DNA of 64,000 nucleotides. It comes from Flavobacteriaceae bacterium PS02337. Lineage in GTDB: Bacteria > Bacteroidota > Bacteroidia > Flavobacteriales > Flavobacteriaceae. Positions 13,013 to 58,820 of this stretch are shown here, piece after piece. The notes under the pieces were generated by a model. The model ran no database searches and had not been told where the DNA came from. It saw only the letters and a list, made by a program, of their open reading frames with translations. Each line of letters starts with the position of its first letter. Within the stretch, counting starts at the first letter, position 1. The stretch is taken from positions 62,001-126,000 of the forward strand of contig JASCOE010000011.1 of assembly GCA_029959285.1 (NCBI GenBank), written 5' to 3'. A program made the position numbers and the translations under genes.

Positions 13013-13036
13013 AAAAAAAAGAGGCAGTAAGCCTCT
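13013..13036 (-). terminator. terminator of the PDDEXK operon
   Basis: A short stem (AGAGGC / GCCTCT) just after the last gene is followed by an eight-T run on the minus strand; the stem overlaps the stop codon region. Confidence 0.7.
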
Positions 13037-37248: not shown

Positions 37249-38043
37249 ATGATAAAAAGACAAGTTTACCATATCATTAAAAAGTATAACATCAGAATAG
37301 GTCTATTCTCTATTGATAAAAGTGGGTTTATCAATGTGACAGGAGATGTTTACATCACCAATACAGTATTGAAGAAATTACCGTTACGTTTTAAAAAGGT
37401 AAGTGGTAATTTTTATTGTAGTTCAAACATGCTGGTTACACTAAAAGGTTGTCCTGATTTCGTGGGTGGCATTTTTAATTGTTATGGCAATCAATTAAAG
37501 TCTTTGGAATTTGGTCCAATTTGCGTTGGTGCAGATTATTTTTGTCATGAGAATAAACTCGAAAGTTTAGAAGGTGCTCCTAAAATAATTAATGGCAATT
37601 TTAACTGTTTCATTAATCAGTTAGAAACGCTTGAATACGGACCTGAAATTGTTTTTGGAAACTATTATGCCAATAATAATTTACTGAGAAATTTACTAGG
37701 TGCCCCAAAACAAGTGAAATCTTTTTTTATAACATCAAACTTTATAAAAGATCTAGAAAATTGCCCTATAAAGATTGATAAACTTGTTATCGATAATACT
37801 GTTCAACTTTTTTTGGGTATGCAGAATTGCAATGTGAATACAGTTGAAATTGAAATGAGAAAACCTGAGTCTAAATCTACCCTTCCTAAGATCGTAATTG
37901 ATCAGATAAAATATTTGCCGATTTTATTTAAGTACGGCAAATATATGTGTATGTATCAATTGGATCCAAACTCGGATTTTAAAGTATTTGATATGAAGTT
38001 ATTCAATGATTTTATGTTAGATATTAAAGAGGGTTTAAGATGA
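37249..38043 (+). CDS. leucine-rich-repeat protein, copy 3
   Basis: 264 residues. The N-terminal module (YHIIKKYNIRIGLFSIDKSG; GDVYITNTVLKKLPLRFKK) matches copies 1, 2 and 4. About six LRR units follow (NMLVTLKGCPDFVGGIFNC, NQLKSLEFGPICVGADYFC, NKLESLEGAPKIINGNFNC). The C-terminal module ILFKYGKYMCMYQL ... FDMKLFNDFMLDIKEGLR is shared with copy 4 and with the small protein at 33061. It is three bases upstream of copy 4, so the two are co-translated. Confidence 0.8.
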   Translation: MIKRQVYHIIKKYNIRIGLFSIDKSGFINVTGDVYITNTVLKKLPLRFKKVSGNFYCSSNMLVTLKGCPDFVGGIFNCYGNQLKSLEFGPICVGADYFCHENKLESLEGAPKIINGNFNCFINQLETLEYGPEIVFGNYYANNNLLRNLLGAPKQVKSFFITSNFIKDLENCPIKIDKLVIDNTVQLFLGMQNCNVNTVEIEMRKPESKSTLPKIVIDQIKYLPILFKYGKYMCMYQLDPNSDFKVFDMKLFNDFMLDIKEGLR

Positions 38044-38046
38044 TTC

Positions 38047-38631
38047 ATGTCTAAAAATTTTAAAAAAATGGATTTTGGTAATGTCTTTCCTGATTACGGG
38101 AGTGAGGTAGGAAAAATAATTAGAGACTATTGGATTATAATTGATTCATACAACATTAATTGCGATGGAAGTATTAGTGTTGACGGGAGTGTGAAATTCG
38201 CAGAATGCATGGATTATCTCACTGAATTGCCTCTCAAATTTGATAAAGTTATTGGGGATTTTGACTGTTCAAAATTGAGTTTAACGTCGCTACATGGATC
38301 ACCTAATTACGTTGGAGGAACATTTAATTGCTCTTTTAATAATTTGAATTCTCTGGAATATTTACCGAAGAAGGCAAAGCGTTTTATTTTTGATAATCAG
38401 ACAAAATCAATGTATACAGGTGATATTAATAGTGATTTTGAAGAAGTTATTTTGCTGCAACTTACAGATCAAAGAGATGAAATTCTTCCAAAACAAATTT
38501 CTCAAAATGCCAATCACCTAGATGTGATTTTCAAGTACCAAAACTTTTTTACAGTATGGAACGATAGTAACACCTTTGATCTAGAGGCTTTTAATTCTTT
38601 AATAACTGAGATAGAAGATGGTTTAAAATAA
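38047..38631 (+). CDS. leucine-rich-repeat protein, copy 4
   Basis: 194 residues, with the family N-terminus (KIIRDYWIIIDSYNINCDGS; LTELPLKFDKVIGDFDC) but only two LRR units (LSLTSLHGSPNYVGGTFNC, NNLNSLEYLPKKAKRF). The shared C-terminal module VIFKYQNFFTVWNDSNTFDL, AFNSLITEIEDGLK closes the protein. Start choice: the first ATG (MSKNFKKMDF) gives 194 residues; MDFGNVF seven codons later is also possible. It forms a pair with copy 3. Confidence 0.78.
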   Translation: MSKNFKKMDFGNVFPDYGSEVGKIIRDYWIIIDSYNINCDGSISVDGSVKFAECMDYLTELPLKFDKVIGDFDCSKLSLTSLHGSPNYVGGTFNCSFNNLNSLEYLPKKAKRFIFDNQTKSMYTGDINSDFEEVILLQLTDQRDEILPKQISQNANHLDVIFKYQNFFTVWNDSNTFDLEAFNSLITEIEDGLK

Positions 38632-38940: not shown

Positions 38941-39321
38941 ATGACAAATATAGATGTTGAAAAAGAGTGGAGTTGCGGTGCAATTATGAACTTAAAAGAA
39001 GTTGGAATTCAAATTGGGAGAAAAGACAAAGAATGTATAATTAATTGGTTAAAAGAAAATTCGGTAACTATTCATAGATTAAAAAAAATGGTTTTTGTTT
39101 ATGAAAATGATTTCAGGTGTGCAATCTTATTGCCGCAAATCAAAGATTATCAGAAAAAATTTCCAAGACATTGGCAAGGCTATTATCAAAAAACGATCAA
39201 AGATGAAGCGTTGTTTAACCTGATAATGCTACAATTGGATGAGAATAAAAAGTATCAGCCAACGACTAAAGTTAAGAAAAGTAAAAAGGATGAGGAGTTG
39301 TATAAAAAGTTATTGTCATGA
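38941..39321 (+). CDS. excisionase-like DNA-binding protein
   Basis: 126 residues, with a helix-turn-helix-like segment (LKEVGIQIGRKDKECIINWL) followed by a short wing (VTIHRLKKMVFVYEND) and a basic C-terminus (KVKKSKKDEELYKKLL). It overlaps the tyrosine recombinase gene by 4 bp, the usual arrangement of an excisionase or directionality factor with its integrase in Bacteroidota elements. Assignment rests mainly on position and fold resemblance. Confidence 0.6.
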   Translation: MTNIDVEKEWSCGAIMNLKEVGIQIGRKDKECIINWLKENSVTIHRLKKMVFVYENDFRCAILLPQIKDYQKKFPRHWQGYYQKTIKDEALFNLIMLQLDENKKYQPTTKVKKSKKDEELYKKLLS

Positions 39322-40589
39322 GTAAGTTAAAGCTTTCTAAAAATCCACATAAGGGATTGAAAATATATTGCAGAAAATGCAATAAAGATAATAGTAACTG
39401 TAAGCACTTTGAAAGTCAGGTTTATAGGGTAAGGATACATGTTCCTGGAACTCAAAATGAAGTGAGGGCTAAACAGTTAGAATCTACCAATTATAATGAT
39501 GCTGTCATTGAAGCAATTGCTTTTGAGAAAGAATTAATTTCTAATGGTTTTATTAGAATTGGAGAAAGAATAACGGAAAATTCCAATGCTATTTATCGAG
39601 GAAATGATTATTCACTCGCTGATGCTGTTGTTAGGTATGGTCAATTTTTGGATGGTGAAAGCGGTTTTGCACACCTTAAAAAAAACGTTAGTGCTGCACA
39701 TAAGCAAGAACTATTGCGCTATTGTACTTATTTCTCTCATAACGTTCGTAAAAGTAAAGATATTACAGTGTTTAGGGCTAAGGATGTAAGTAAAGAGGAA
39801 GTTTCTAGTTTCTATCTATGGGCTGAGGGAAAGTATAAAACAAAGACTTTAAAAAAGATTATGAGTACTTTGAAAGGGTTCTTTGAGTTTTTAATAGATA
39901 TAGAGGAAATCGAAATGAGAAATCCCTACAGAAATTATATAATTAAGGGGCCGACTAGTTCTATAGTTGAAACAATTACAAAGAGCGAATTCGAGGAAGT
40001 CTTAAAAGCTGTTGATAAGGATAAGGATCAACCAGGTGGAAGAGGGATAAAAAAGCATTTGTATGGTAAATATTTGAGGCAGGCGTTCGAATTATTTTTA
40101 TTGACGGGATGTAGGCGAGAAGAATTAGTGGTTATGAAATGGAGTGACATATATGAAACCGCTACAAATATTAAATTTATTTATATTGATAATATTAAAG
40201 TTCAGAGGATTAGAAACAAGACAAATGTTCTTAGGCCAATTCCAATTACGTCTCAATTAATGGATTTACTTATTGAGATGGGATATAATGAAAAATATAT
40301 GTCGGAAGATTATATTTTGTGTCCGATACGAGATATGAGCTTACAATCGTTGATGGATTTTTTATCCAAATCTTTTACTGATTATTGGAAAAGCACAAAA
40401 AACAATAAAGAATGTAGTTTGAAAAATCTGAGAAAGACATACTTTACTTGGGTCAATAGGGTCATGGGGGATGATACTAAAATTCTTTCATCACATTCAT
40501 CAAATGAAGTTTTGAAGAAATTTTATCTTGATCCGAAGCTTTCACCTATTATTGCAAAAGGTGCAGCGGAGATTAGAATATTTGATTGA
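39318..40589 (+). CDS. tyrosine recombinase/integrase
   Basis: 423 residues. An N-terminal cysteine-containing segment (YCRKCNKDNSNCKH: Cys18, Cys21, Cys28, His30) may bind zinc. A SAM-like core-binding domain follows at about 95-205. The catalytic domain has LTGCRREELVVMKW (Arg266), LKNLRKTYFTW (Arg372, with Lys369 where His is usual), LSSHSS (His393) and the nucleophile LKKFYLD (Tyr403). It is coupled to an excisionase-like gene. It is the only tyrosine recombinase in the island and so the best candidate for integration at tRNA-Met, although it is 18 kb from the right end. Confidence 0.88.
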   Translation: MSKLKLSKNPHKGLKIYCRKCNKDNSNCKHFESQVYRVRIHVPGTQNEVRAKQLESTNYNDAVIEAIAFEKELISNGFIRIGERITENSNAIYRGNDYSLADAVVRYGQFLDGESGFAHLKKNVSAAHKQELLRYCTYFSHNVRKSKDITVFRAKDVSKEEVSSFYLWAEGKYKTKTLKKIMSTLKGFFEFLIDIEEIEMRNPYRNYIIKGPTSSIVETITKSEFEEVLKAVDKDKDQPGGRGIKKHLYGKYLRQAFELFLLTGCRREELVVMKWSDIYETATNIKFIYIDNIKVQRIRNKTNVLRPIPITSQLMDLLIEMGYNEKYMSEDYILCPIRDMSLQSLMDFLSKSFTDYWKSTKNNKECSLKNLRKTYFTWVNRVMGDDTKILSSHSSNEVLKKFYLDPKLSPIIAKGAAEIRIFD

Positions 40590-40728: not shown

Positions 40729-41382
40729 TTATATTAACTGAAAATTATTTAAGTAAGAGATTATTCCTAACAATCTGCCTTGACCAATGCTTTTTAGAGT
40801 TTCGTATGATTCTTTATGACAATGCCTATACTTTCGATCAGCTCCGCAAAAACATTTTGAGGTACGTGGTGGCTTACTATTTTCATAAATATATACAAGT
40901 ATGGAATAAACTTTGATTAAATCATTAATTTGTAAAATATCGTATAGAGATTCTAAGATTCCCATTGAGCCATGAGACCTTTCATTTAGGAAATAACCTT
41001 CTTTCTCTCTAAAACTTTGGTTGTGCAAATAAGGAAGAACTTGATTTTTGATGAAACTTTTAAGCATAAATCCTTTTGCACAGTAAATGTATTCTTCAAT
41101 TGGTGTGCAGATACAAAAATGACCATTTGCATAAATATGCCAGTCAATATTATGCGGTAATCTTTGGTTTGTTTCATAAACTAAAGGAAAACTATTTGGG
41201 TAGTCATTCGGACATTCTATTCTTATAGAATATTTATCATACATGACATCGTTTTCATCAAAAAGAACGAGATCGCCAGTAAGGTATGGAAGAGAATCTT
41301 CCCGAATACATAATTGTAAATCGGGAAAACTACTCATCGCTTCACGAGCTTCTTCAGCGAATCTATCATACAGCTTATTCAT
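40729..41382 (-). CDS. CBASS E2-like protein (E2-only type II short CBASS)
   Basis: 217 residues. The N-terminal ~120 residues have a ubiquitin-conjugating E2-like layout: SIRIECPNDYPNSFPLVYET, then WHIYANGHFCICTPIEEY with candidate catalytic Cys90 or Cys92. A C-terminal SEC-C-like cluster (KCFCGADRKYRHCHK: Cys177, Cys179, Cys188, His189) probably binds zinc. No E1 or JAB protease gene is present, so this fits the short type II CBASS with an E2 alone, which acts on the CD-NTase. Its start overlaps the CD-NTase gene by 8 bp, supporting coupled translation. Confidence 0.8.
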   Translation of the reverse strand: MNKLYDRFAEEAREAMSSFPDLQLCIREDSLPYLTGDLVLFDENDVMYDKYSIRIECPNDYPNSFPLVYETNQRLPHNIDWHIYANGHFCICTPIEEYIYCAKGFMLKSFIKNQVLPYLHNQSFREKEGYFLNERSHGSMGILESLYDILQINDLIKVYSILVYIYENSKPPRTSKCFCGADRKYRHCHKESYETLKSIGQGRLLGIISYLNNFQLI

Positions 41383-42310
41383 AACAAAATGGATATGAAG
41401 TCATTGCGCCAGTAGCCGCTGCTGTATTACGAGAGACATCTTCTTTGTCCTCACCAACAGGGAATCTATAACCTAAATTCTTACGCCATAATTTACTGGC
41501 TTCTTTTTGATTAGTATTACGAATTGCAGAGTCCGCATCCACTATAAATTTGTCCAGTGCTTCTAAAAACTTTTCTTTGTTTGCATAATTTTCTAGCAAA
41601 TTATCATTTGGTACGGCTGGAACTATACATTTGAAATCTTTATTAAGTTCTTTTTTTATTTCCTTAAGAATATCACGTGTTGTGATATCATCACGTTCAT
41701 TTAAAACAATTAATTCTTTAGCATTAGTAGCTAAGATTGTCAGAGCTAAACCACTAGGCATTTTAAAATTTTGATTGTCAGCCCATCCTTTAAGATATTT
41801 GATGTTTCGTAATAATCGACCGTCCTTATCTTTTTTAGACACAAACCAATCTACAACGGCTTTTGGGTCGCTGTTTTCAAAGCCAACATTTTTGACAGCG
41901 ATTTTATATTCCTGCCCATCTACTTTGTAATAAACTGGATGGTCAATTTCATAATCATTAGCAAAGATGGAGCGCACACATTTTTTACGATTTTCAGGTG
42001 CTGTCGTCGTGTAGCCATCGACGGCTTGCGCTACCCACTCTTTGAGAGTTGAGGCAGAAACATCGGGTTCCCGAAAAAAGTAGATACCATCATCGAGGTC
42101 ACAGATGTCTTCTGTTGTACGGATACCGTTTTTCATTTTATAAGACCCTTGTATATAGAAATAGGGTACATAATCCGCATGATTTTCTTTAAACCAAGCA
42201 GTGATTCTTTTACGAAGTCCTTCTTTCGAATTCTTCATTCTTTCGTTCTTTTTTGAACCTATTGATATATCATTGTGATATTCCTGAAATAAATTTTGAC
42301 AGTTTGCCAT
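41375..42310 (-). CDS. CBASS CD-NTase (cGAS/DncV-like nucleotidyltransferase)
   Basis: 311 residues. The active site reads YIQGSYKMKNG (Gly55, Ser56) followed by ICDLDDGIYF (Asp71, Asp73), the GSYKxxT...DxD signature of CD-NTases, with a probable third Asp in DYEIDHPVYYK. It makes a cyclic oligonucleotide on phage infection, which activates the neighbouring patatin. Preference for cGAMP is likely for a patatin partner but not provable here. The C-terminus ends SYPFCYE, not in glycine, which matters because E2-type conjugation normally uses a C-terminal glycine. Confidence 0.9.
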   Translation of the reverse strand: MANCQNLFQEYHNDISIGSKKNERMKNSKEGLRKRITAWFKENHADYVPYFYIQGSYKMKNGIRTTEDICDLDDGIYFFREPDVSASTLKEWVAQAVDGYTTTAPENRKKCVRSIFANDYEIDHPVYYKVDGQEYKIAVKNVGFENSDPKAVVDWFVSKKDKDGRLLRNIKYLKGWADNQNFKMPSGLALTILATNAKELIVLNERDDITTRDILKEIKKELNKDFKCIVPAVPNDNLLENYANKEKFLEALDKFIVDADSAIRNTNQKEASKLWRKNLGYRFPVGEDKEDVSRNTAAATGAMTSYPFCYE

Positions 42311-42314
42311 TTTG

Positions 42315-43331
42315 TTATTGTTTTAAAAATTTTAAAATTTCTGTTAATCTGTTTTTTGCTATTTCTTCACCGATAGCCTTCATGCGGTCTATGTGTTTTT
42401 GTTTAGAGGAATTGAGTTCGATGCTGTCGCCTTTCATATCGTGCTGAATACGTAAATGACTAAATGTATTGCCTATTTTACCTAATGCTCGCTGTAGAAA
42501 GAGTAAATATTGCTCCGTAATCTGTGCTTGTGTATCCAATACTAAGTCTACCAGCTTAGGATTGGGAAAGAGCCAGTCGAATACATTCTTTGGACGCCAT
42601 GTGCGTTTTATTATTTGTTTTCCTTGGCCTGTACCCAGCGATAAAAGTGCTATATCCCCGATCGGTATATCTAGTTTGTCGGTTGCTTCAAATACGCCTA
42701 TCAAAGCGGGATTGTTGGCAAATATTCCACCATCGATCATGTTAATATTGGTTCCTTCTCCAAATTCATTCTTAAATGAAAAGGTATGGGGCGGAAAATA
42801 TACTGGTGCAGAGGCACTAGACATTGCAACATGGTATGCCGGGAGTTTATAATCTCTCCTGTATCCTGGATGATGTTTGGTTTTAAGCACATTTATAGCA
42901 CCGTCGTTTCCATTAAATGCTGGTATGCAAACTTTGCTTTTAAGATCGTTCATGAGGGGATCCTGACCTCCATTTGCTTCTGCATAGACTTCTCTTAGTT
43001 TTTTTAGCAATTGCTTGTTGCTGTAGATGGCATTAAAGAAAGCTCTGCTTTTACGAGGTAGAAAACGAAAGACAAATCTTGGAAAGATGATTTTTGCATG
43101 ATCTTCATAGAATTTTGCAAGCTCTTTTGCTGGTATACCTAAAGCAAGACCTATTGCCAGGATAGCTCCTGTTGAGGTGCCACAGATAAGATCGAAATGT
43201 TCATGTAGCGACTTGTTGGGTTCTTCCTTTTGCAATTCTTCTTCTAATTCGGCCAGGACTTTGGCAGGGATAAGACCTCTTATCCCGCCTCCATCAATAG
43301 AGAGTATTTTGAATTTTTTATTTTTCTCCAT
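42315..43331 (-). CDS. capV: CBASS patatin-like phospholipase effector
   Basis: 338 residues. Patatin motifs are complete: oxyanion loop IDGGGIRGLIP (12-22), nucleophile elbow CGTSTGA (Ser53) and catalytic dyad Asp in IDGGIFANNP (Asp200). The 'SSASAPVYFPP' segment after the elbow is also typical. CapV-type phospholipases are activated by the cyclic dinucleotide made by the adjacent CD-NTase and degrade the inner membrane, killing the infected cell. It is 4 bp upstream of the CD-NTase gene and preceded by a small gene in the same operon. Confidence 0.92.
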   Translation of the reverse strand: MEKNKKFKILSIDGGGIRGLIPAKVLAELEEELQKEEPNKSLHEHFDLICGTSTGAILAIGLALGIPAKELAKFYEDHAKIIFPRFVFRFLPRKSRAFFNAIYSNKQLLKKLREVYAEANGGQDPLMNDLKSKVCIPAFNGNDGAINVLKTKHHPGYRRDYKLPAYHVAMSSASAPVYFPPHTFSFKNEFGEGTNINMIDGGIFANNPALIGVFEATDKLDIPIGDIALLSLGTGQGKQIIKRTWRPKNVFDWLFPNPKLVDLVLDTQAQITEQYLLFLQRALGKIGNTFSHLRIQHDMKGDSIELNSSKQKHIDRMKAIGEEIAKNRLTEILKFLKQ

Positions 43332-43338
43332 ATAGCTG

Positions 43339-43611
43339 TTATTTTAATGGTGTTCCATAAATAGCAGCCCAATCTTGGTCAAACTGACTCGATATGCATC
43401 TTTCAAGCGAGATACTTAAGATTAAACATATTCTTTTGGCATCGTCTCTTGCTTCTGGTGCCGTCTTTGTCTGATGTAAAAGAGTTGTGTTGGGTAAATG
43501 TACATCAAGTCCTTTTTGGTCTTTGAAAACCTGTTTGTAGCCTAATTCAAACATCTTTTCTTTGAATTCCCGATGTTTAGAAGGAATGTCGTAAGTGATT
43601 ATTATTGCCAT
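43339..43611 (-). CDS. small CBASS-operon protein, possibly Cas2/VapD-like fold
   Basis: 90 residues. The N-terminus IIITYDIPSKHREFKEKMFE has the beta1-Asp-alpha1 start of Cas2/VapD ferredoxin-like proteins (Asp8 at the end of the first strand), and the second half (RDDAKRICLILSISLERC) fits a second helix. The family resemblance is only at this level. It lies 7 bp upstream of capV, the first annotated-size gene after the sigma-54 promoter. It might be an accessory regulator or ribonuclease. The Cys in the C-terminus and the conserved-looking LLHQTKTAPEARDD are other handles. Confidence 0.65.
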   Translation of the reverse strand: MAIIITYDIPSKHREFKEKMFELGYKQVFKDQKGLDVHLPNTTLLHQTKTAPEARDDAKRICLILSISLERCISSQFDQDWAAIYGTPLK

Positions 43612-43678
43612 ATTCTAAAAAATTATTATTTAAAAGATTTAATGTCTTCAGCGGATTACAGTTATTATTTGGATTTTT

Positions 43679-43777
43679 TCACTGTTTCCTTAACAGTTGT
43701 TTTGGGATGTTTTCTCCGCATAATGCTACAAACTTTCCTATTCCTGCATTTCTCTGTACTGATTTTTTCTTTGTCAT
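43679..43777 (-). CDS. unannotated 32-residue ORF at the start of the CBASS operon
   Basis: Minus-strand ATG at 43775-43777, stop TGA at 43679-43681. The start MTKKKSVQRNAGIG is basic and the end IPKQLLRKQ too. A perfect Shine-Dalgarno AAAGGAGGTG (43785-43794) lies 7 nt upstream, unusual because Bacteroidota mostly do not use one. The predicted sigma-54 start (about 43813) gives a leader of about 36 nt. It could be a leader peptide, a small regulator or a true operon member. Too short for composition tests; confidence rests on the SD and position. Confidence 0.5.
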   Translation of the reverse strand: MTKKKSVQRNAGIGKFVALCGENIPKQLLRKQ

Positions 43778-43822
43778 TTTTATACACCTCCTTTCTTCTT
43801 TCTGATTTTAACTACCCATATA

Positions 43823-43839
43823 TGGCTAATAGCATGCCA
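43823..43839. promoter_or_regulatory. palindromic bidirectional -24/-12 (sigma-54) promoter
   Basis: Plus strand TGGCTAATAGCATGCCA, minus strand TGGCATGCTATTAGCCA. Both strands show the GG at -24 and GC at -12 separated by exactly 10 nt. The minus-strand copy matches TGGCAYG-N4-TTGC better and would drive the CBASS operon; the plus-strand copy would drive the RtcR-like gene. A sigma-54 activator encoded next door supports it. Confidence 0.65.
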
Positions 43840-43870
43840 GACGATATTTTATGGATTTTTATTTGTTTTT

Positions 43871-43908
43871 ATCAATAATTATATCAATATTTGATTTTTA
43901 ATTATCAA
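43871..43908. promoter_or_regulatory. possible activator-binding repeats between CBASS and RtcR
   Basis: ATCAA/TTGAT half-sites occur four times: 43871-43875, 43883-43887, 43891-43895 (inverted) and 43904-43908. ATCAA-N3-TTGAT (43883-43895) forms an inverted repeat. They lie 30-90 bp from the -24/-12 element, as upstream activating sites of a sigma-54 enhancer-binding protein could. Confidence 0.45.
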
Positions 43909-43916
43909 AAAATGAT

Positions 43917-45392
43917 ATGAAAACATTGATTTCATGGGTTGCTACCATGCATGATTTTACCAGAAATCCAGAAACAAGACAAATTATCGGGGTCGATGAA
44001 AATGGCCCTAATTTTAATTTTCATAATGATTTCTTTGATCATGACAGACATGTGATTTTATCTTCTGAGAAAGGAGACAAACCCGATATCTATATTGAAA
44101 AACTAAGGACTGAGCTAAATAAAAAATTTCCTAATCGTACTATTGAGACTCAGTACCTAGATATTGCCGATGTTATTAACATACCGCAAATAAAAAGCAA
44201 GGTAGACGGTTTGCTGATGAGGGAGTTTAAGGAAGATGAGATTAGTATTTTCTTTTCTCCTGGTACTTCTGCGATGCAGATTTCATGGTATCTGATTCAT
44301 GAGTCTGGAATGTTTAATACAAAAATGTTTCAGGTTCGACCTCGAAAGTATTCCAAAACGGATAAGGCAGAGTTGCTGGATATGAAAATAGTAAAGTCTA
44401 CTATTCCAGGCGGAAGTATAATTAAAGAAGACAGTGTTGTAGACCATAAAGAGGATTATCTTATAACTAATTCACTGAAACCTATTTATAGAAAAGCAGA
44501 GATGATTGCTAAAGCTGATCAGGTGACTACTTTAATTTATGGCGAAAGCGGTTCGGGTAAGGAGCATCTAGCCAATTATATACATAGAAATTCAGCAAGA
44601 TATGAAAAGCCATTTATTGCCATCAATTGCTCTGCCTTTACAGATGAACTCCTAGAATCGAGATTATTTGGTCATACGAAAGGGGCCTTTACTGGTGCAG
44701 TAGCTGACCATAAAGGTTTGCTTGAAGAAGCACAGGGTGGCACAGTTTTTTTGGATGAAATTGGAGATATTTCACCTTATATGCAACAATTGCTGCTAAG
44801 GGTTATTCAGGAAAAAAAGATACTTAGGATAGGAGATACTAAGGAGAAGAAGATTGATCTAAGGATTATAGCTGCCACAAACAGAGATCTTCCTCAGCGA
44901 TGTGTGGAAGGGAATTTTCGATGGGATTTATTCTATCGACTCGCAATAACTGAGCTTACTTTACCTCCTTTACGAGATAGAGGCATGATTGAAAAGAAAG
45001 AATTAATTGATTTTTTTATAGAATCTAAAAGAAAGTTATTTAAAAGATCTAAAAAATTGCGATTAGGAAAAGATATAGAGCAATTTATATTAAATTATCT
45101 ATTTCCCGGAAATGTTCGTGAAATGGAAAACTTAATTGAAAATCTTTATGTTTTTAATAATGATATTGTTTTACGGGATACCTTACCAGCAAGATTACTA
45201 AATCCTTCGGATGAATTTAAGTTAGATTTAAAAACGGCTGAAAAATTGCATATAATAAAGGTTCTTAAAATAGCAAAAAGTAAGCAGCAGGCTTCTAAGT
45301 TGTTGGGCTGTGTAATAAATACTCTGGAGAAGAAAATTAGGGATTATGAAATAAAAACAGATGTCTTTTTGGATTTAGATAGCGTCAAATAA
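43917..45392 (+). CDS. RtcR-like sigma-54-dependent activator
   Basis: 491 residues. The N-terminal ~170 residues are RtcR/CARF-like, with FFSPGTSAMQ (113-121), the loop that in RtcR-type CARF domains contacts a nucleic-acid ligand. The AAA+ domain is complete: Walker A YGESGSGKEHLA (208-219), GHTKGAFTGAV with the sigma-54 contact loop GAFTGA (256-261), Walker B TVFLDEIGDI (276-285) and RVIQEKKILRIGDTKEKKID. A Fis-like HTH closes it (KSKQQASKLLGCVINTLEKKI). It is divergent from the CBASS operon with a palindromic -24/-12 element between, so it most likely activates CBASS when it senses RNA or oligonucleotide ligands. Confidence 0.85.
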   Translation: MKTLISWVATMHDFTRNPETRQIIGVDENGPNFNFHNDFFDHDRHVILSSEKGDKPDIYIEKLRTELNKKFPNRTIETQYLDIADVINIPQIKSKVDGLLMREFKEDEISIFFSPGTSAMQISWYLIHESGMFNTKMFQVRPRKYSKTDKAELLDMKIVKSTIPGGSIIKEDSVVDHKEDYLITNSLKPIYRKAEMIAKADQVTTLIYGESGSGKEHLANYIHRNSARYEKPFIAINCSAFTDELLESRLFGHTKGAFTGAVADHKGLLEEAQGGTVFLDEIGDISPYMQQLLLRVIQEKKILRIGDTKEKKIDLRIIAATNRDLPQRCVEGNFRWDLFYRLAITELTLPPLRDRGMIEKKELIDFFIESKRKLFKRSKKLRLGKDIEQFILNYLFPGNVREMENLIENLYVFNNDIVLRDTLPARLLNPSDEFKLDLKTAEKLHIIKVLKIAKSKQQASKLLGCVINTLEKKIRDYEIKTDVFLDLDSVK

Positions 45393-45462
45393 AATATGTA
45401 AAGCATTAAAAGGTTATTAAGGTTTAGGCAAATCGTAATAACCTTTTAATGCTTTACATATT
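45393..45462. terminator. 27-bp perfect inverted repeat between RtcR and brxL
   Basis: The left arm (45393-45419) and right arm (45436-45462) are perfect complements with a 16-nt loop. It starts directly after the RtcR stop codon and lies 28 bp from the convergent brxL stop, so it should act as a bidirectional terminator. Confidence 0.75.
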
Positions 45463-45489: not shown

Positions 45490-47502
45490 TTAAAGTTTTA
45501 AGTAGGTTATTTCACATGACTTGCATTTTCTTTTAGTTTGATCTAAATCAGCAACGTTAAATCGACCTTCAATTTTTTCAAATATGTCTAATCCTCTGCC
45601 TAAAGTTATTTTCCAACCATTGCTTGCGGCTATAAAACGATCGTGATGATTTTCCATTCTGTAGGTTAAATTTATACCAAGATCACTTATGCTTTCTTGA
45701 AGTTCCTCAAAATAGCTTATGGAATCACTTAAATGAGTTTCGTCATTCCATGTAACAATTTCGAGGTTGATTTCATCTTCTAAAGCTTTATTATTTGCTA
45801 GCATCATACAGAATTCTAATAAATTTTTGAACTGATATGGCATTCTTATGTAGGGATCTTGAATAGTAATATTTTGTGCCCCTTTTAAATAATCTCCAAA
45901 TAATTTTTTGTAGGAAATTCCAGTTTGATTGTCTTTCAAAATGGTTTGATGCGGTTTTAAATCTAATATCGGTTTGGTAGTTGAACTACTATCCGTTTCC
46001 TCTAAATCATTGTCCTCTTTGACTTGAACGGCAGCTTTGTAATTTAAGTTCTCTAAAGTTTCCGGAAAAAACTCTTTTCCTGTGGTTCGTATTGTGTATT
46101 TAAACTCTACAGGTTCTGATTTGAAAGTTTCGTCAATGATATACAATTGATCTTTTACTCTTTTTCTTCCTTCAATGCAGAAATCTAGTATTTCAAGTAA
46201 TTCTTCGTCAGTTATAACTTGATTAGGATATAGTAGTTTAACCATTCCAGAAACTGATTTCCTAATAGCCGTTTTATCTCTGGTTGTTAAAGAACCATCT
46301 AAAGTAATTTTACTATCAAGTACAGAAGAGAAATCAAACTTTCTTAACTCTCTTAATAATTCGGCCAAATAATCTACTATAAAACCATATTCTTTAGAAA
46401 ACACAGATGATTTTAAAATACGAACTTCCCAGCCAGGAATATACATGTGCATCCTATCTAAGAATGCTCCTTTTATATATCCGTCAGGAATGGATTCAAA
46501 TAGATGGGAGTTCTTTAGCATGTATGGTACATTATGTTTTGTATTACCAACAAAAGCCATCGATGCAGTAGCTTGATAAGTTTCTTTTCCTCTATTAAAA
46601 CTTTGATTTGCCATGTAGTTTTGCATGATCTTGACTAAATCACCATCAGTGCGTTTACCTCCCTTTTCTTGCTCAAATTCATCCAAAGCCACTACATCCC
46701 AATAGCCAACTAATCCAATTTTGTCCCCGTTATTGCTTACGAAAAGTCTCGCTTTGGAAACGTCTCCACCAGAAACTAAAACACCATGTGGAGATAGTTC
46801 GGAAAAGATATGTGATTTACCTGTTCCTTTAGGGCCTAGTTCTATAAAGTTATAGTTGTTTTCTACATGCGGAATTAAGCGAGATAATTGAATGAATTTA
46901 TCACGTTTGTTAAAAGATTCCGGATTTAAGCCTATGCTGTGCATTAATAAATCTAACCATTCTTCTGAAGTGAATTCTTTACGTAAATCGATATATTCGT
47001 TTAAATTTACATTTGAAACCTGAATTGGTTTTAGATCAGCAATTATCCACCTCATGTCAATGTCGTCTTCATGGGAATAAGCTAGAGTTACTATAGACCA
47101 GACGCCACCGCCACTTAATAATTTTGGATTATCAATAACCATTTTATCTGATATAGGCACTTTGCGTAATCCTAAATTAGCAAAGTCGGCTTCATACATA
47201 TTAGCTGATCTATCATTTAAAGTAACATTGATTTTATCAATTATCTTATGGCTACCTGAATTTCTAATTTTTGCTTTTACAATTTCAGCATCAGAACGAT
47301 GGACATAATTATCACGAATGACATTTCTAACTTTTTCGATTCCAGATTGAATGATTTCTTCATCATCAATTGCACAATACTGACCTAATAAATATTCCAA
47401 GACATATACTGGTACTGGATTGTTACCTTTTACCAAAGCTGTTAAATCTTTACGAACTACTTTACCTTCGAAATGTTTTATTATTTTATTTTTTAATTCC
47501 AT
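45490..47502 (-). CDS. brxL: BREX Lon-like AAA+ protein BrxL
   Basis: 670 residues. The AAA+ core has Walker A ELGPKGTGKSHIFSEL (about 217-230) followed by HGVLVSGGDVSKARLFVSNN and the Walker B VALDEFEQEKGG. The N-terminus includes the conserved RKEFTSEEWLDLLMHSIGL region and the C-terminus carries a CKSC pair. BrxL forms MCM-like rings on DNA and is the last gene of type 1 BREX. It starts at the base where pglZ stops (TAATG overlap). Its product is needed for phage exclusion. Confidence 0.93.
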   Translation of the reverse strand: MELKNKIIKHFEGKVVRKDLTALVKGNNPVPVYVLEYLLGQYCAIDDEEIIQSGIEKVRNVIRDNYVHRSDAEIVKAKIRNSGSHKIIDKINVTLNDRSANMYEADFANLGLRKVPISDKMVIDNPKLLSGGGVWSIVTLAYSHEDDIDMRWIIADLKPIQVSNVNLNEYIDLRKEFTSEEWLDLLMHSIGLNPESFNKRDKFIQLSRLIPHVENNYNFIELGPKGTGKSHIFSELSPHGVLVSGGDVSKARLFVSNNGDKIGLVGYWDVVALDEFEQEKGGKRTDGDLVKIMQNYMANQSFNRGKETYQATASMAFVGNTKHNVPYMLKNSHLFESIPDGYIKGAFLDRMHMYIPGWEVRILKSSVFSKEYGFIVDYLAELLRELRKFDFSSVLDSKITLDGSLTTRDKTAIRKSVSGMVKLLYPNQVITDEELLEILDFCIEGRKRVKDQLYIIDETFKSEPVEFKYTIRTTGKEFFPETLENLNYKAAVQVKEDNDLEETDSSSTTKPILDLKPHQTILKDNQTGISYKKLFGDYLKGAQNITIQDPYIRMPYQFKNLLEFCMMLANNKALEDEINLEIVTWNDETHLSDSISYFEELQESISDLGINLTYRMENHHDRFIAASNGWKITLGRGLDIFEKIEGRFNVADLDQTKRKCKSCEITYLKL

Positions 47503-50042
47503 TAAAAATCCGTTTGAATTAAGGTGTTGTTTTGGATGAGTTCTTCAATTAATGGGTTTAATTTATCTTCGTTGTCAAATATTTTGAGTTTTAGAAATGC
47601 TTCGGATGCAGCTTCGGATGTTAATAGTAATTCAACTCTTAGCATTCTTTCACTAGGTGCTTCGGATGTATAGTTTAAAACAATGTTTTCCTCATTACTA
47701 ACTAATGATAGATTATTATACAAACCAATACTTAACAATCGTTCTTTATGTGTTCTTGAAACTTCTTGTTCTTGTAGTAGGTTTAATTTCAAAATATTTG
47801 AGACTATTTTTAAAGCCCCTTTATTGATTATAAGTGGTGAAACTTTTTGAGTCACAGCTTCTAATTTTCTGGAACTTTCAATTAATGGAATTATCAATTC
47901 TTGTAAACTACCTCCACAATGTACAAATTGATGACCTACACCTTGTTTACGATACCTATTTACTGAAAATGGAACCGTAACATGAAGATCATCTTCAAAA
48001 ATTGTTGTTGCCTTTAGAGGAAAGGAATATCCTAAATCCCTTAATGAATTATCTATTGTTAAGAAATATCTATTGTGTGACTGTACGATGTCAATACTTG
48101 GTAACTGTTCTAATGATTTCTCTTCAATTTCGCGGTCATTATATAAAAATCCATGATCTGCAGTAACTATGACTTTGGTAACTGCATGAGTTGCATGAAG
48201 ATTTTTAACCATGATTTTTAATTCATTAATAGCTTCTTTTACTGCTTCGAATGTTCTCCTTTCTGAAGGTTTTTTATCCCCTGTTGCATCAATAACATCA
48301 TGGTATATGTACACCACAGGTTTCTTGAATATCTCCCTTTTAGCACTTTGATTTAGCTTTTCGATATCTGAATATTGATATGCGTGTGCGTCTTTGTTTT
48401 GTAGTTGTAATATCTTTGTTCTGTTGTCTGTTCCTGATATAGAAATACCTTCACTAAGAATATCTCCGTTATTGAATTTTTTATTTTTACCTGGTAACAA
48501 TTGAGCCATTCCTACGTTTGTTTTGGATGGAATGGAAGCTAACATATATCTTATTTCAGCAGTATTCTTGGAATCACTGTGCATTTCGGACAGCAATTCG
48601 TAAGCTACTTCATAACGTAAAGCATCAGAAATAATTACCACGACTTTTACCTTTGTTGGTTCTATTTCTGTGTTGTAAAAATCATACTGTTTTGGAGCCT
48701 TTATTTTGGAATAATCAAAATTAAAATGGTTTAAACATTTTAACCATTCTCTGTTTAAAACATCGGTATGTTTTTCATATGTTGTATTTAGTTCTTCATG
48801 TATTTTATCTAAATTGATTTGTATGGGAATTTCAGCAAAATTTAAATTTTTATAGATTGCAATGGCTTTTCTATAGTTGGAATCAATTTTATACCATTCA
48901 CTGGTGTAAGACAATATATAATCTTCTGGGGTGTCTAAAATATAAGTCGCAATAACATTGATTCGCAGTTGCATTTTGGCAATTTGCACGATGTATTTCA
49001 GCGTGTTTTTAACTTCAGCATCTATATTGGATTGCAAACTGATTAGCTCTATTTTTTTAATAATTTCGGCTGGAGCACTTGCTAGATGATCTTGTATTTT
49101 ATTTACTACAGCCCAAATCATTTCGGTATTGAATTCGGAAAACTCTCCTTCATCACCATAGACTTCGATTAACTTTGCTCCTCGAATATCATTACTAACG
49201 GATTCGAGTAATTCTTCAAAACTTGATTTTAGTGTTGCATTTTTTTCCACTTCTTGCAACATTTGATTTAATCTTGTAAGTTGTGTGCTATCCGTAATTT
49301 TAAAATTACCGTAAGGATCTGTATTTTTTGCAGTTGGAATAGTTTGGGTGAGTTTGTTGTATAAAATACTACGAGCCACATCTAATAGACTTTCTTTATT
49401 GATTTTTTGAATAGCAACTCCAGTAGCTTCTTTTAGATGCCTAATTACTTCGTTTTCAAAGTTTAGATTGGTTACTTTATTGATAACTCTTTGTAATTCA
49501 CTTTGATCTGAATAATTGGCAAGTGTTAATAATTTAGCTACTTGTAACCACCAAGATTCTATATTTTTAAATTTTAAAAACGCGGAGAATAATGCTTTTT
49601 GCAATGCAGCTTCTGTTAAAGTACTAGGATTTAAAATTGGCTTACAGACTTCTTGAACGCCAGCATATTTGAGTTCAGATATATAATGCGCGATCAAAGC
49701 TTTTTGATGTCTTTGTAAATTGTAGTCTTCCATAAAAGTCCCTACATTGTCTAACTGCAATTCTTTATTTGCTAATAATAATCCCATTAGTGGAAAATTT
49801 TGAGAACTTTCTTTATCGACTGGTAATGGCAAAGGCAAGTGTAATAATACTTTTTTATTGACCAGTTCTTCTGTGAGTTTGCATTTGAGCGAAAAAGGAT
49901 TGTTTTCCCAAAACTCTTTGTGAATGCCAGATAGGTTTAGTTTTTGAACTTCTTCCAAATGTTCGTTGTTTTCATCAAAAAAGAACAAAATACGTAGTTG
50001 TGGAAAACGGTTGAAATAGCTGATTACTTTTTCTTCGATCAT
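47502..50042 (-). CDS. pglZ: BREX alkaline-phosphatase-like protein PglZ (BrxZ)
   Basis: 846 residues. The PglZ domain has VVVIISDALRYEVAYELLSE (about 470-490) with the metal-binding Asp, and VIVTADHGFLYND (about 625-635), the two diagnostic motifs of the alkaline-phosphatase superfamily. PglZ is the only gene present in all BREX types. It is 1 bp from pglX and overlaps brxL by one base, so all are in one operon. Confidence 0.95.
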   Translation of the reverse strand: MIEEKVISYFNRFPQLRILFFFDENNEHLEEVQKLNLSGIHKEFWENNPFSLKCKLTEELVNKKVLLHLPLPLPVDKESSQNFPLMGLLLANKELQLDNVGTFMEDYNLQRHQKALIAHYISELKYAGVQEVCKPILNPSTLTEAALQKALFSAFLKFKNIESWWLQVAKLLTLANYSDQSELQRVINKVTNLNFENEVIRHLKEATGVAIQKINKESLLDVARSILYNKLTQTIPTAKNTDPYGNFKITDSTQLTRLNQMLQEVEKNATLKSSFEELLESVSNDIRGAKLIEVYGDEGEFSEFNTEMIWAVVNKIQDHLASAPAEIIKKIELISLQSNIDAEVKNTLKYIVQIAKMQLRINVIATYILDTPEDYILSYTSEWYKIDSNYRKAIAIYKNLNFAEIPIQINLDKIHEELNTTYEKHTDVLNREWLKCLNHFNFDYSKIKAPKQYDFYNTEIEPTKVKVVVIISDALRYEVAYELLSEMHSDSKNTAEIRYMLASIPSKTNVGMAQLLPGKNKKFNNGDILSEGISISGTDNRTKILQLQNKDAHAYQYSDIEKLNQSAKREIFKKPVVYIYHDVIDATGDKKPSERRTFEAVKEAINELKIMVKNLHATHAVTKVIVTADHGFLYNDREIEEKSLEQLPSIDIVQSHNRYFLTIDNSLRDLGYSFPLKATTIFEDDLHVTVPFSVNRYRKQGVGHQFVHCGGSLQELIIPLIESSRKLEAVTQKVSPLIINKGALKIVSNILKLNLLQEQEVSRTHKERLLSIGLYNNLSLVSNEENIVLNYTSEAPSERMLRVELLLTSEAASEAFLKLKIFDNEDKLNPLIEELIQNNTLIQTDF

Positions 50043-50043
50043 T

Positions 50044-53000
50044 TTATTTAATTTTTGCTAAAACACTTTCAAACTTGGCATAATTAACTGTTACTCCATC
50101 ATCTAAGTCAAAAGTTATTTGTTGATCGGCAACATTTTTTAATTCCATATCGTATACTTCACATTCTATAATATCTTTACTAATTTGATCTAAACGTTTT
50201 GCTTCCTGTGTGTTTAAGTTGGATGTATTTGCTTTTAGCATACTTTCTTCGGAGCGTAGATTTTTTAAATGTTCTAACATATAATTAGCTCGTATTTTTT
50301 CTACTGTAAAAGCGTTCATACGATGCATATATACCAATACCTGAAAAGCGCCTGTTTTAGAACTGAACAACCAATAGATTGGTTTTTTTTTGTACATCCA
50401 GCAATGGAATTTATAGAAATCTTTTACTAAGAATTTCTCTAAATCTTTATTTAAACATTCTTGTATAAAATTGATATTTTCTGTTCTGGTTTCGTGCCCC
50501 CAAATGGTATCAAGCAATTGATTTATTTGTTGCAAGACATCGTCGGCGAAATTACAGTTTTTGCCCATTAGTGGAATAATGGCATCATCATCAATAGTTA
50601 CCGTCACATCAATGTACTTATAACTGGTTAACTCTTCTGTTGTCGGATCAGGATGGGCAATGTTTAGACCTGGTTTGTCTAAACGATAACGTCCCATAAA
50701 CACCCCAATAGCATAAGAAATAAATTGTATAATTATTATGTCATTTCTGAAAGGCAGTTGGAGATTATTTTCACCTTTACGAAATTGATTATCTAAAAGT
50801 GTCCAAATCGAATTTGTAGCCTCTTCTATTTCTCCCTTTTTTTTCTTTTTATTTCGGGATACTAATTCATCTTGCAAAATGCTAATATTTTTTAATGCTA
50901 CGTCACTTTTAAGTTCGTTTTGTAGACCATAAATATTTATAAAAATACGGTTTAGATCTTCTTCGTTGGCTTGTAATTGAAAAAAAACATTGGTAACGTC
51001 TTTTTTCCACTTATTAAAAGCTTCTTTTATATTATTGCTGTTATTTAATAATGGTGATTTCTTAAAATCCCAAGAGGTTTCCCTTGAATGCCAATCAATT
51101 CTAGAATATTCAATGTTGTCATTAATAATATTATTATAAGGAAAATTGCTATCCCATTTAATTGGAATTCTTGCTATATCCCCTACTTGAAAAGCAAGTG
51201 TAGGATTTAATATGGTAAGTATTTTTTCAGAAACAATAGAATTAAGGCTGCCTAAAATAAAATTTATATCTTTTGTGGGAAAAACAGAAGATCCATTATT
51301 GTCAAAAACACAATTAGAAGGAATGTATCTAGATCCAAAGCCATTACTAGCTAACAATGACCAAGTTATTGCCTGCTTTTTGATAAAATCTTTATTCCTG
51401 ATTGTTGAGCCTTTAAAATTCTTTATTTCTCTTCCATCGCTTTCCCAATTTACAACTAAATCTACGTTACCATACCATTTCCTGTAAGTACCACCTTTTA
51501 TATAAATAAACCATTTTTTATCACCATCTAAACAAGAAAATTTTAAATTTGAAATTTCATGCCAAAAACGAACAAATTTGTCATTCTTTCCTGTATCAAT
51601 TCCTTTCTTAACAGGAACAAAATCGGATAGTTTTCCTGATTTAAATATTTGTCTGATGTTTTTACTGACCCAATAAGCAATGGGAGTTCCAGGAATATTC
51701 AAAAAATTGATTTGTGATATACTTGGATAATATATTTTGGATCCATCAATGGAATTTTCAATTTTTGGGTCTTCTTTTGAATAATTTGAAAATTTAAATT
51801 TAAAATTTTGATTTCCATTTGAAATAAGAAATAGCTCTTTTAAGTGTTCTTGATTAAACTCTTGAAAAGTACGTTCCACTAGTCTTAAATATGTTCCTTT
51901 TGAATTTTCTACAGGTAATCTGTTGCTGATAACTGTAGCCATTGAACCGAAATCAGGGCCAAAAACACCTCTGCTTAAATGAAGTAATGAATCTATTTTT
52001 TGTTTATTTACAATTTGACTTCTAAGTGTTTCAAAAGAACTTAAAAACATCCAAGAAGGAGGAACTATGAAACCATATTTTCCATTTTCCACAGTAAAAC
52101 TTGGTAAAACTTCAATAAAAACAGTGCACAAGTCTGATTTTGTTGCAGGGTATAAATTATCAATATAATCTATTAAATTACTATTCATATTTGCCCTGCC
52201 CATATATGGTGGATTTGCCACAACTGAAGTATATTTGTTTGTTAATAACAATAAAACAGGAATATAGGATTTGATACTTTGGTAAACTCCTTCAATATTA
52301 ATATCTCGATATTCTGTCTTGCTTAAGTCTTTAAAACGCGTTTCTATAAATTTTCGAGCTTCATCATTTAAACAAATTTTCATCACTGATCCTAAGTTTT
52401 TAGCTTGTTTCATTAAGCTTAAAGCTGCATCTAATTCTTCGGCAAAATCAAGTCCATCATTGCCTAAAAAGTCTTTTATTTCTTGCAAACTAAAATCTTT
52501 CTTTTCAGGCATGGCAAATACATTTGGTATCCATCCTTTTGAAAAAACATCACGATAGTATTTCGCTGCTTTTAACAAAATCGCAAAGGTGGCTAATTGT
52601 GCCGCTCTATCGTCAATGTCTAAGCCAAATAAGTTATTTTTTAAGATGGATTCTACTGCCTCTTCTGGAGTGTAGTATTCTTCTTTGTACATTTGATACA
52701 GAATGTCAAAACCTTCTACTAATATGTGACCTGATCCAGCTGCCGGATCAATTAATGTGAGTTCTGAAACATCTTTTATAATAGGTGTGGCCAAAGAGTC
52801 ACTCTCGTTTTCTACTAAATACTTCATAGCACTTTTTAAGGGAGAATTTGGATGTTTGTCTAACCAAATTTTACCCGCGGTGTTCTGTATCATGTATTTT
52901 ACAATCCAATTTGGTGTAAAAATTTGAGTTGCTGCTGGAATGTCTTTGGCTTCCGCTTTTTTTCCTTTGTTGAAAGAAGCGAAAACTTGATCCTTTCGTT

Positions 53001-53655
53001 CAGAAATATAAAACTGGTATAGCCAACCGATTAACTCTACTTCTTTGTATTCAGAATCTGAAATGGCATCAGTGGTATTTAGCAGATGTAAAAATCCACT
53101 GTCCTGAAGCATGTTATCTGGTAATAATAACTCTGTATAATCGTTAATTTTTCCAAAAATGTTATTCAGCATATTATTACTATGACAATAACCGACCAAT
53201 AATATAGAAAATGTTTCTTGGTCTTTGCTGTAATCGCCTATTATTTTTTTTAATCGTTCCTGTTCTTTACTGTTTAGGAAATTGTATTGTCCTTGTCTTG
53301 CTTTTTGTAACAAGATAGGTGTATGTTCTAAACCTTCGGCATTTACTAATAATGCTGGTTCGTAGCCATTTTTTGCCATGATTCGCAACGCCATAATTCT
53401 GTTAAACCAAGTGTAGGCAGCTTCTTCTATAATAACTTCAATTGTTTTGTGTTTTACTGCTGCTTGTAATGATGCCCATAGGCGCAAAACATTTGGGTCA
53501 TCAAAAACTTCTCCACGAAAACTATAACCACCACTTACTTTTTGTGGTGCTTCTACAGTGTTTCCTTTGGTGTCAAAACCCCAATACAATAATTTTTTAG
53601 CGACACCATCGATTAATAATCTTCTGGATTGTTGTGCGAATGTTTTGGTATTCAT
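50044..53655 (-). CDS. pglX: BREX adenine-specific DNA methyltransferase PglX (BrxX)
   Basis: 1203 residues. Motif I LIDPAAGSGHILVEG (about 300) binds S-adenosylmethionine, and motif IV SVVANPPYMGRA (about 480) is the NPPY of N6-adenine methyltransferases. The large flanking regions are the target-recognition part. PglX methylates a non-palindromic site on host DNA, and BREX blocks replication of unmethylated phage DNA. The reading frame is intact throughout. It starts directly after the brxC stop codon. Confidence 0.95.
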   Translation of the reverse strand: MNTKTFAQQSRRLLIDGVAKKLLYWGFDTKGNTVEAPQKVSGGYSFRGEVFDDPNVLRLWASLQAAVKHKTIEVIIEEAAYTWFNRIMALRIMAKNGYEPALLVNAEGLEHTPILLQKARQGQYNFLNSKEQERLKKIIGDYSKDQETFSILLVGYCHSNNMLNNIFGKINDYTELLLPDNMLQDSGFLHLLNTTDAISDSEYKEVELIGWLYQFYISERKDQVFASFNKGKKAEAKDIPAATQIFTPNWIVKYMIQNTAGKIWLDKHPNSPLKSAMKYLVENESDSLATPIIKDVSELTLIDPAAGSGHILVEGFDILYQMYKEEYYTPEEAVESILKNNLFGLDIDDRAAQLATFAILLKAAKYYRDVFSKGWIPNVFAMPEKKDFSLQEIKDFLGNDGLDFAEELDAALSLMKQAKNLGSVMKICLNDEARKFIETRFKDLSKTEYRDINIEGVYQSIKSYIPVLLLLTNKYTSVVANPPYMGRANMNSNLIDYIDNLYPATKSDLCTVFIEVLPSFTVENGKYGFIVPPSWMFLSSFETLRSQIVNKQKIDSLLHLSRGVFGPDFGSMATVISNRLPVENSKGTYLRLVERTFQEFNQEHLKELFLISNGNQNFKFKFSNYSKEDPKIENSIDGSKIYYPSISQINFLNIPGTPIAYWVSKNIRQIFKSGKLSDFVPVKKGIDTGKNDKFVRFWHEISNLKFSCLDGDKKWFIYIKGGTYRKWYGNVDLVVNWESDGREIKNFKGSTIRNKDFIKKQAITWSLLASNGFGSRYIPSNCVFDNNGSSVFPTKDINFILGSLNSIVSEKILTILNPTLAFQVGDIARIPIKWDSNFPYNNIINDNIEYSRIDWHSRETSWDFKKSPLLNNSNNIKEAFNKWKKDVTNVFFQLQANEEDLNRIFINIYGLQNELKSDVALKNISILQDELVSRNKKKKKGEIEEATNSIWTLLDNQFRKGENNLQLPFRNDIIIIQFISYAIGVFMGRYRLDKPGLNIAHPDPTTEELTSYKYIDVTVTIDDDAIIPLMGKNCNFADDVLQQINQLLDTIWGHETRTENINFIQECLNKDLEKFLVKDFYKFHCWMYKKKPIYWLFSSKTGAFQVLVYMHRMNAFTVEKIRANYMLEHLKNLRSEESMLKANTSNLNTQEAKRLDQISKDIIECEVYDMELKNVADQQITFDLDDGVTVNYAKFESVLAKIK

Positions 53656-57159: not shown

Positions 57160-57168
57160 AATTCTATA

Positions 57169-57759: not shown

Positions 57760-57765
57760 TTTATA

Positions 57766-58777: not shown

Positions 58778-58820
58778 GTAGCGAGGACGGGAGTTGAACC
58801 CGTGACCTCAGGGTTATGAA
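58778..58820 (-). repeat. right attachment site in tRNA-Met
   Basis: The identical 43-bp copy of 4128-4170, here inside the functional tRNA. The element supplied this 3' half, restoring the gene. Confidence 0.92.

Follow-up and report, generated by a model that had tools for sequence, protein, structure and literature searches.

RtcR of Escherichia coli and Salmonella is a sigma-54 activator with a CARF sensor domain, an AAA+ domain and a helix-turn-helix (HTH) domain, as described in passages of PMC7790460. In E. coli K-12, the rtcR gene is divergent from the operon under its control, rtcBA. Here, we describe an RtcR-like activator of the same architecture that faces the operon of a cyclic oligonucleotide-based antiphage signaling system (CBASS) instead of RNA repair genes. 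It was found in Flavobacteriaceae bacterium PS02337 (assembly GCA_029959285.1). The stretch of DNA that was analyzed, called the window, is 64,000 nucleotides long (contig JASCOE010000011.1, positions 62,001 to 126,000, forward strand), and coordinates are given within it.

RtcR-like activators with a CARF, an NtrC-type AAA+ and an HTH domain were predicted near restriction systems in 2014 by Makarova et al. (PMC4012209), and the paper on coiled-coil nuclease tandems (CoCoNuTs) extends the prediction to another defence (PMC11090510). These proteins have the architecture of ours, and the prediction made for them, sigma-54 activation by a ligand of infection or damage, is the same. The targets named in the relevant passages of both papers are restriction systems and CoCoNuTs; CBASS is not among them, and no enhancer motif is given. 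The sole mention of CBASS in the CoCoNuT paper is made in another context. The main text of PMC7159879 contains no RtcR. No literature pairing RtcR-like activators with CBASS was found in a search that left most subscription papers outside. Thus, while the general idea of RtcR-like activators near defence systems is known, the pairing with CBASS and the enhancer word shared between loci appear new within the reach of this search.

The initial annotation of this DNA had assumed that CBASS is normally controlled at the enzyme level alone. This premise did not hold. Passages of PMC13373217 report that CapW/BrxR, CapH+CapP and CapK+CapS regulate the transcription of CBASS and other immune operons, that they are repressor-based and that they respond to single-stranded DNA. 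Like the present locus, these systems place a regulator gene beside an immune operon, and they are induced upon damage, as is predicted here. They differ in that they rely on repressors, whereas the regulator predicted here is an activator of sigma-54 type that senses through a CARF domain.

The activator gene and the CBASS operon

The locus likely corresponds to a mobile short type II CBASS cassette carrying its own sigma-54 activator. Its features are as follows.

40745-45353: cassette extent, defined by the span of DNA homology to the locus of a Dysgonomonas metagenome-assembled genome (82%)
43917-45392 (+): RtcR-like sigma-54 activator (RtcR_PspF2 subfamily), 491 residues, with CARF at about 1-165, AAA+ with GAFTGA at 186-431 and a short C-terminal HTH below threshold
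43904-43916 (-): enhancer-like palindrome 1 (ATCAN5TGAT), ATCATTTTTTGAT, abutting the rtcR start codon
43883-43895 (-): enhancer-like palindrome 2 (ATCAN5TGAT), ATCAAATATTGAT, 21 nucleotides from palindrome 1
43825-43839 (-): sigma-54 type -24/-12 element, TGGCATGCTATTAGC, strict pattern match, directed at CBASS
43679-43777 (-): small open reading frame (ORF) of 32 residues, first on the predicted transcript, preceded by AAAGGAGG
43339-43611 (-): p90, a conserved 90-residue protein, first long gene of the operon
42315-43331 (-): CapV-type patatin phospholipase effector
41375-42310 (-): DncV-like CD-NTase (CBASS cyclase) with GS...DLDDG
40729-41382 (-): E2-like conjugating protein; cysteine motif HxxxxGxFC, SEC-C match below threshold

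Nine proteins from the window's ORF list, between 38941 and 50042, were scanned with Pfam, PADLOC and NCBIfam. The RtcR-like gene is divergent from a four-gene operon (43611 to 40729, - strand) encoding, in this order, p90, CapV, the CD-NTase and E2. The ORFs, strands and coordinates of the initial annotation agree with the ORF list; the p90 gene and the promoter elements, in the same cassette, are additional to it. The activator matches the PADLOC profile RtcR_PspF2 CARF_AAA_HTH (PDLC01995) over positions 1-481 of 481 (E 6.9e-135), and Pfam Sigma54_activat is matched at 3.5e-62. SPGTSAM and GAFTGA are present, and so are the Walker A motif GESGSGKE and the Walker B motif FLDEIGD. The RtcR-like identity given by the annotation is therefore confirmed by a full-length match. 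The N-terminal domain is of CARF type by sequence, as indicated by the Pfam RtcR domain (27.3 bits, cut-off 23.1) and by a profile alignment with the CARF domain of E. coli RtcR (hhalign probability 92.9, E 3.6e-7, 103 columns); sequence search gave no relative of solved structure for this domain. Overall identity to E. coli RtcR is 26%, with GAFTGA aligned. The protein is not an RtcR equivalog in the sense of NCBIfam, scoring 260 of the 650 bits required, and it has no adjacent rtcBA.

As to the operon, the CD-NTase scored 175.8 bits against the NCBIfam CBASS cGAMP synthase (cut-off 150), with 7ljo as the nearest solved chain (E 1.5e-75), and the phospholipase 249.8 bits against NF041079 (cut-off 200). 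The E2 protein has a PADLOC match at 1.3e-70, and a second model, of comparable length and labelled E1-E2, is matched too. Catalytic signatures are present in all three proteins: GS...DLDDG in the CD-NTase, GTSTG with DGG in the phospholipase, and HxxxxGxFC in E2. A CD-NTase, an effector and an E2 were thus found, and no separate E1 or JAB among the nine proteins. The core genes are those of short type II CBASS, to which the cassette adds p90, the small ORF and the activator. No regulator of the CapW, CapH+CapP or CapK+CapS type was matched in the nine proteins (Pfam at E up to 0.01, and PADLOC); these types are, respectively, a WYL repressor, an HTH repressor with a peptidase, and a STAS-wHTH protein with a kinase.

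The promoter elements and their conservation

The strict sigma-54 pattern has a single match in the 64 kb (43839-43825, - strand), with 0.07 expected by chance. Transcription would start near 43814, 12 nucleotides after the GC of the -12 element. Relative to this predicted start, the palindromes would be centred near -96 and -75, a usual distance for enhancers. A perfect palindrome pair occurs at one place in the 5.7-Mb genome (56 contigs), between rtcR and CBASS. Allowing up to two mismatches yields four more places, as compared to one for a reversed control pattern. The rpoN gene is present in a single copy. The parts of a sigma-54-dependent promoter unit are thus found together: a GG-N10-GC -24/-12 element, upstream repeats and rpoN.

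In order to find relatives of the regulator, genome contigs were searched with an alignment restricted to the CARF domain, which gave 37 loci in Bacteroidota and Balneolota. Five of them carry the same operon opposite the regulator: L048 (Sphingobacterium humi), L049 (the Dysgonomonas genome above), L050 (S. micropteri), L051 (Pedobacter namyangjuensis) and L052 (Sphingobacterium sp.). With the window, six E2-CBASS cassettes could be compared. The first 110 nucleotides upstream of rtcR can be aligned across the six without any gap, with 25 of 35 columns invariant in the palindrome block, 7 of 41 in the spacer, 8 of 18 in the -24/-12 block and 1 of 16 in the next block. The sigma-54 site stands 77 nucleotides from the rtcR start, at the identical position in 6/6 cassettes. 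The palindromes occur at a fixed distance, 1 to 35 nucleotides before the rtcR start codon; palindrome 1 has no mismatch to ATCAN5TGAT in 6/6 cassettes, and palindrome 2 at most one in 5/6, L048 being outside. Together, the layout and the presence of the sigma-54 site in the window and in its five homologous cassettes exclude a chance juxtaposition.

In a tree of 40 regulators, those of the six E2-CBASS cassettes form one clade (100/100), whose sister, with support that is not strong (89/83), comprises the regulator of a STING-CBASS (L061) and L056. A tree of 18 CD-NTases likewise groups these six members in one clade (100/100). Branching within the two clades is partly different. The 12 other CD-NTases correspond to nine further matches in 395 genomes of the phylum and to 3 of 27 plasmid records. 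Among about five genes on each side of these cyclases, neither RtcR nor p90 was found, though the gene caller can miss p90; tblastn gave no p90 match in the plasmid cyclase records. The six cassettes were found via the regulator, so that cyclases of the clade without it could have been missed. The host genome has a second CBASS (L098, G000:C56:1500-15500). It comprises CapV and a CD-NTase that shares 49% identity with that of the cassette, and it lacks an RtcR-like regulator. By eye, the genes surrounding it resemble type I restriction subunits.

DNA homology starts and stops near the cassette edges. It spans 40771-45352 with L048 (82%); with L050 and L052, identity is 72 and 71% over nearly the span seen with L048 and L049, and with L051 the homology falls into two separate pieces. 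BrxL, PglZ and the recombinase, which are encoded next to the cassette in the window, have no match in 16.5 kb of the five sister loci, all of which contain the CBASS genes. These homology limits and unmatched neighbours suggest a unit that is probably moving horizontally. In three sister loci, a gene of about 1,477 codons, grouped by size alone, adjoins E2.

Beyond the cassettes, 40 regulator loci were surveyed: the window, 36 of the 37 loci (L083, in which the start is missing, was excluded) and three plasmid loci. The controls were 325 other genes of at least 150 codons in the same loci, and the counts that follow treat related loci as independent, so that the p-values obtained for the -24 element are too small. 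At least one palindrome, with no more than one mismatch and within about 70 nucleotides of the start, precedes 23/40 regulators as compared to 7/325 controls. Two palindromes were seen at 10/40 regulators and a perfect one at 17/40, against 0/325 controls in either case. A TGGYA -24 element lies 74-80 nucleotides from the start of 14/40 regulators and of 3/325 controls; after removal of the six cassettes, 8/34 regulators have it. Overall, the sigma-54 control of CBASS predicted in the initial annotation is well supported at the level of sequence by the sigma-54 site, the enhancer-like repeats, rpoN and co-inheritance.

The predicted switch and its alternatives

On this basis, the RtcR-like protein is predicted to bind the two palindromes beside its own start codon. 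As long as the CARF domain is unliganded, the AAA+ domain would be inactive and sigma-54 polymerase would wait at the -24/-12 site. Once it binds a ligand that arises from infection or damage, the likeliest candidate being an RNA end, for example that of a tRNA fragment carrying a 2',3'-cyclic phosphate, the activator would oligomerize and open the promoter, driving the small ORF, p90, CapV, the CD-NTase and E2. CBASS would thereby be held by two locks, one on the synthesis of its parts and the other on the activation of the cyclase as an enzyme. With the palindromes abutting the rtcR start codon, the activator may in addition restrain its own production. If true, this logic differs from that of the repressors: a polymerase waits at a closed promoter, which is fired by an RNA-damage ligand. 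It would give a suicidal defence system a tight off state, a promoter code that can be searched for in genomes and a compact, transferable cassette with which to find the ligand of one CARF branch.

Several observations weigh against this reading. The -12 element is TAGC here, not TTGC, and a looser consensus with three mismatches matches 24 times in the window as compared to 21.9 expected from shuffles. The Fis-type HTH (HTH_8) scores 17.4 bits, under the Pfam cut-off of 22. The six cassettes are homologous, and conservation among them is partly shared ancestry. The palindrome is absent, at one mismatch or less, from 17/40 loci, 11 of which make up the Hymenobacter/Pontibacter branch. In a second sample of nine regulator loci, drawn from a scan of the class (10/395 genomes with E of 1e-8 or lower, the host's among them), the palindrome was found in 5/9 and the -24 element at the equal distance in 1/9 (L127), showing that the shared code is limited to one part of the family. 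A sigma-70-like match lies at 43875-43846, in the same direction as the sigma-54 site. Lastly, no RtcA was matched in the host genome, which is a further difference from RtcR-rtcBA; two RtcB were found, on other contigs. As E. coli RtcR requires RtcA and RtcB (PMC9650030, in passages), the ligand route must differ here, and cyclic phosphate ends would have to come directly from RNases.

An RNA end is nevertheless the favoured ligand, by inference from RtcR proteins of a different subfamily. In passages of PMC7790460, Salmonella RtcR binds 5' tRNA halves ending in a 2',3'-cyclic phosphate and then oligomerizes. In passages of PMC9650030, tRNA fragments bound the CARF domain of E. coli RtcR and were insufficient for activation in vitro. 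It is possible, though unlikely, that the CARF domain detects the cyclic nucleotide produced by the cassette's CD-NTase, a basal CBASS triggered by phage then boosting its own transcription by positive feedback. Cyclase systems do recur as neighbours of the regulators (E2-CBASS, TIR-STING CBASS, type III CRISPR, clustered regularly interspaced short palindromic repeats). However, ten CARF columns, including D13, H45, S114-P115-G116, M120, W124, H128 and Q139, are invariant in 32/32 rows whichever system stands opposite, among them loci facing type I restriction genes, which are not known to make a cyclic nucleotide. This invariance across unlike systems argues for one common ligand rather than for the product of each system. 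Cyclic oligoadenylates elicit a response from the CARF domains of CRISPR systems, whereas they do not activate E. coli RtcR, both points according to passages of PMC9650030. Moreover, passages of PMC4012209 tie nucleotide binding to a charged residue after strand 4, which RtcR-type CARF domains mostly lack, and note that these domains may bind distinct ligands; by our reading of the alignment, this residue is Ser here.

Alternatively, the operon could be constitutive, transcribed from an ordinary Bacteroidota promoter to which the sigma-54 element only adds. The sigma-70-like match just upstream and the 12 cyclase relatives without an RtcR-like gene among the neighbours inspected would fit this scheme. 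We consider it improbable since sigma-70-like matches are not commoner than in shuffles (18 as compared to 21.4, in a scan that does not model Bacteroidota promoters), and since conservation is concentrated in the palindromes and in part of the -24/-12 site rather than in the spacer that holds the sigma-70-like match. Autoregulation of rtcR as the main role of the palindromes, with CBASS controlled otherwise, would agree with their fixed position next to the rtcR start codon and is very improbable in view of the -24 element, which is divergent, lies at a fixed distance in 14/40 loci and points away from rtcR. Finally, it is hardly credible that the activator simply shares the island with CBASS and works chiefly for something else, for instance the BREX operon that flanks it on the opposite side: BrxL (45490-47502) is the next gene and a plasmid relative of the regulator stands beside BREX genes, but the BREX operon runs convergently to rtcR, brxA, the first BREX gene, is 13 kb off, the perfect palindrome pair is unique to the space between rtcR and CBASS, and it is CBASS, not BrxL or PglZ, that accompanies the regulator in the sister loci.

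Relatives of the regulator, small genes and neighbourhood

The related regulators face a variety of genes. Neighbours of defence type were assigned in 18/37 loci, the five cassettes included; of the other 19, some are on short contigs and most genes were unscanned. L041 and L042 duplicate the regions L058 and L066. L056, L062, L068 and L069, among others, have ATPase, helicase or methylase matches of the kind seen in defence loci.

L061:5923-9452: CD-NTase and TIR-STING effector opposite the regulator; palindromes and a TGGCA element at the equal distance
L057, L058, L059, L060, L066, L067, L071: type I restriction genes opposite the regulator
L076: type I restriction genes downstream of the regulator
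L072: Csm1- and Csm3-type genes
L080: BrxC and PglX
L055, L073: helicase, methylase or PtuA-like genes
L046:778-10443: Aureispira plasmid, Cmr (type III-B CRISPR) operon divergent from a related activator
L045: Hymenobacter plasmid, regulator beside a GajB-like helicase and BREX genes
Third plasmid CARF relative: upstream of type I restriction
L127 (G1103), upstream of 4399 (-): good sigma-54 element, TGGTAC-N5-TTGCC, 78 nucleotides from the regulator start, facing a 115-residue gene

Judging from its promoter elements, the L061 locus may be a CBASS of a different type that is controlled by such a switch. More tentatively, and with somewhat greater doubt than confidence, we suggest that one sigma-54 activator family, using paired ATCAN5TGAT and a general RNA-damage signal, is, in Bacteroidota and Balneolota, a portable switch for unlike immune systems, serving two kinds of CBASS as well as type I restriction and perhaps also type III CRISPR. 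If so, RNA cleavage by one defence or by a phage would induce the next, in a layered programme run by sigma-54 polymerase.

Three CARF relatives were found on plasmids, as listed. No close DNA relative was found on plasmids and no CARF relative in phage records; in viral contigs, 23 pattern matches for CARF gave zero confirmed. Within the host's family, the CARF domain is present in 2/397 genomes, the window's own and one with a weak match (E 9.6e-4). A scan of the phylum with the PADLOC profile retrieved mostly other AAA+ activators, with at least 4/395 genomes reaching the first profile position. Neighbours in the second sample are mixed: one regulator lies by a Cmr6-like gene, one has an HsdR-like gene several kb off and the rest are unclassified, two neighbours being Cas1-like by eye only.

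The p90 protein has no solved-structure relative by sequence search, and the window copy has no Pfam match, one of the six members matching weakly (E 0.11). Weak matches were obtained to phrog_8894 in 5/6 members (best E 0.013) and to NCBIfam YmfI with the L052 copy (E 0.0076). Going by its first residues, p90 might have a Cas2-like fold, though this is a guess. The L048 copy was skipped by the gene caller; its reading frame is nevertheless present. Outside the cassettes, a relative of p90 occurs in 3/394 other genomes of the class, with no CBASS gene among the neighbours inspected.

The small ORF is preceded by a strong Shine-Dalgarno sequence. Homologues of 37-38 residues are intact in L048, L050 and L052, and relative to these the second half of the window ORF is out of frame. 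It is not intact in L049 (no ATG) or L051 (stop). The ORF may be decaying, or the RNA rather than the protein may be important. Since it is intact in only 3/6 cassettes, the proposed mechanism does not rest on it. Relatives of the small ORF are found on five plasmids, and the three inspected share no common neighbour.

On the rtcR side of the cassette lies a six-gene operon of bacteriophage exclusion (BREX) type 1, brxA, brxB, brxC, pglX, pglZ and brxL (45490-58365, - strand), beyond which a tRNA-Met is found at 58778-58852. BrxL carries at its C-terminus an additional MIT_C domain of phospholipase-D-like type. Where rtcR and brxL converge, a long inverted repeat seen by eye between their ends (45393-45462) is possibly a two-way terminator. 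The E2 end of the cassette is adjoined by a tyrosine recombinase with a small upstream gene (38941-40589, + strand), which are unmatched in the five sister loci and may therefore belong to another element. Farther away, two adjacent proteins that are similar by eye are encoded at 37249-38631 (+ strand), and 13035-14339 (- strand) encodes a match to the PADLOC candidate defence family PDC-S26 (E 3.8e-90).

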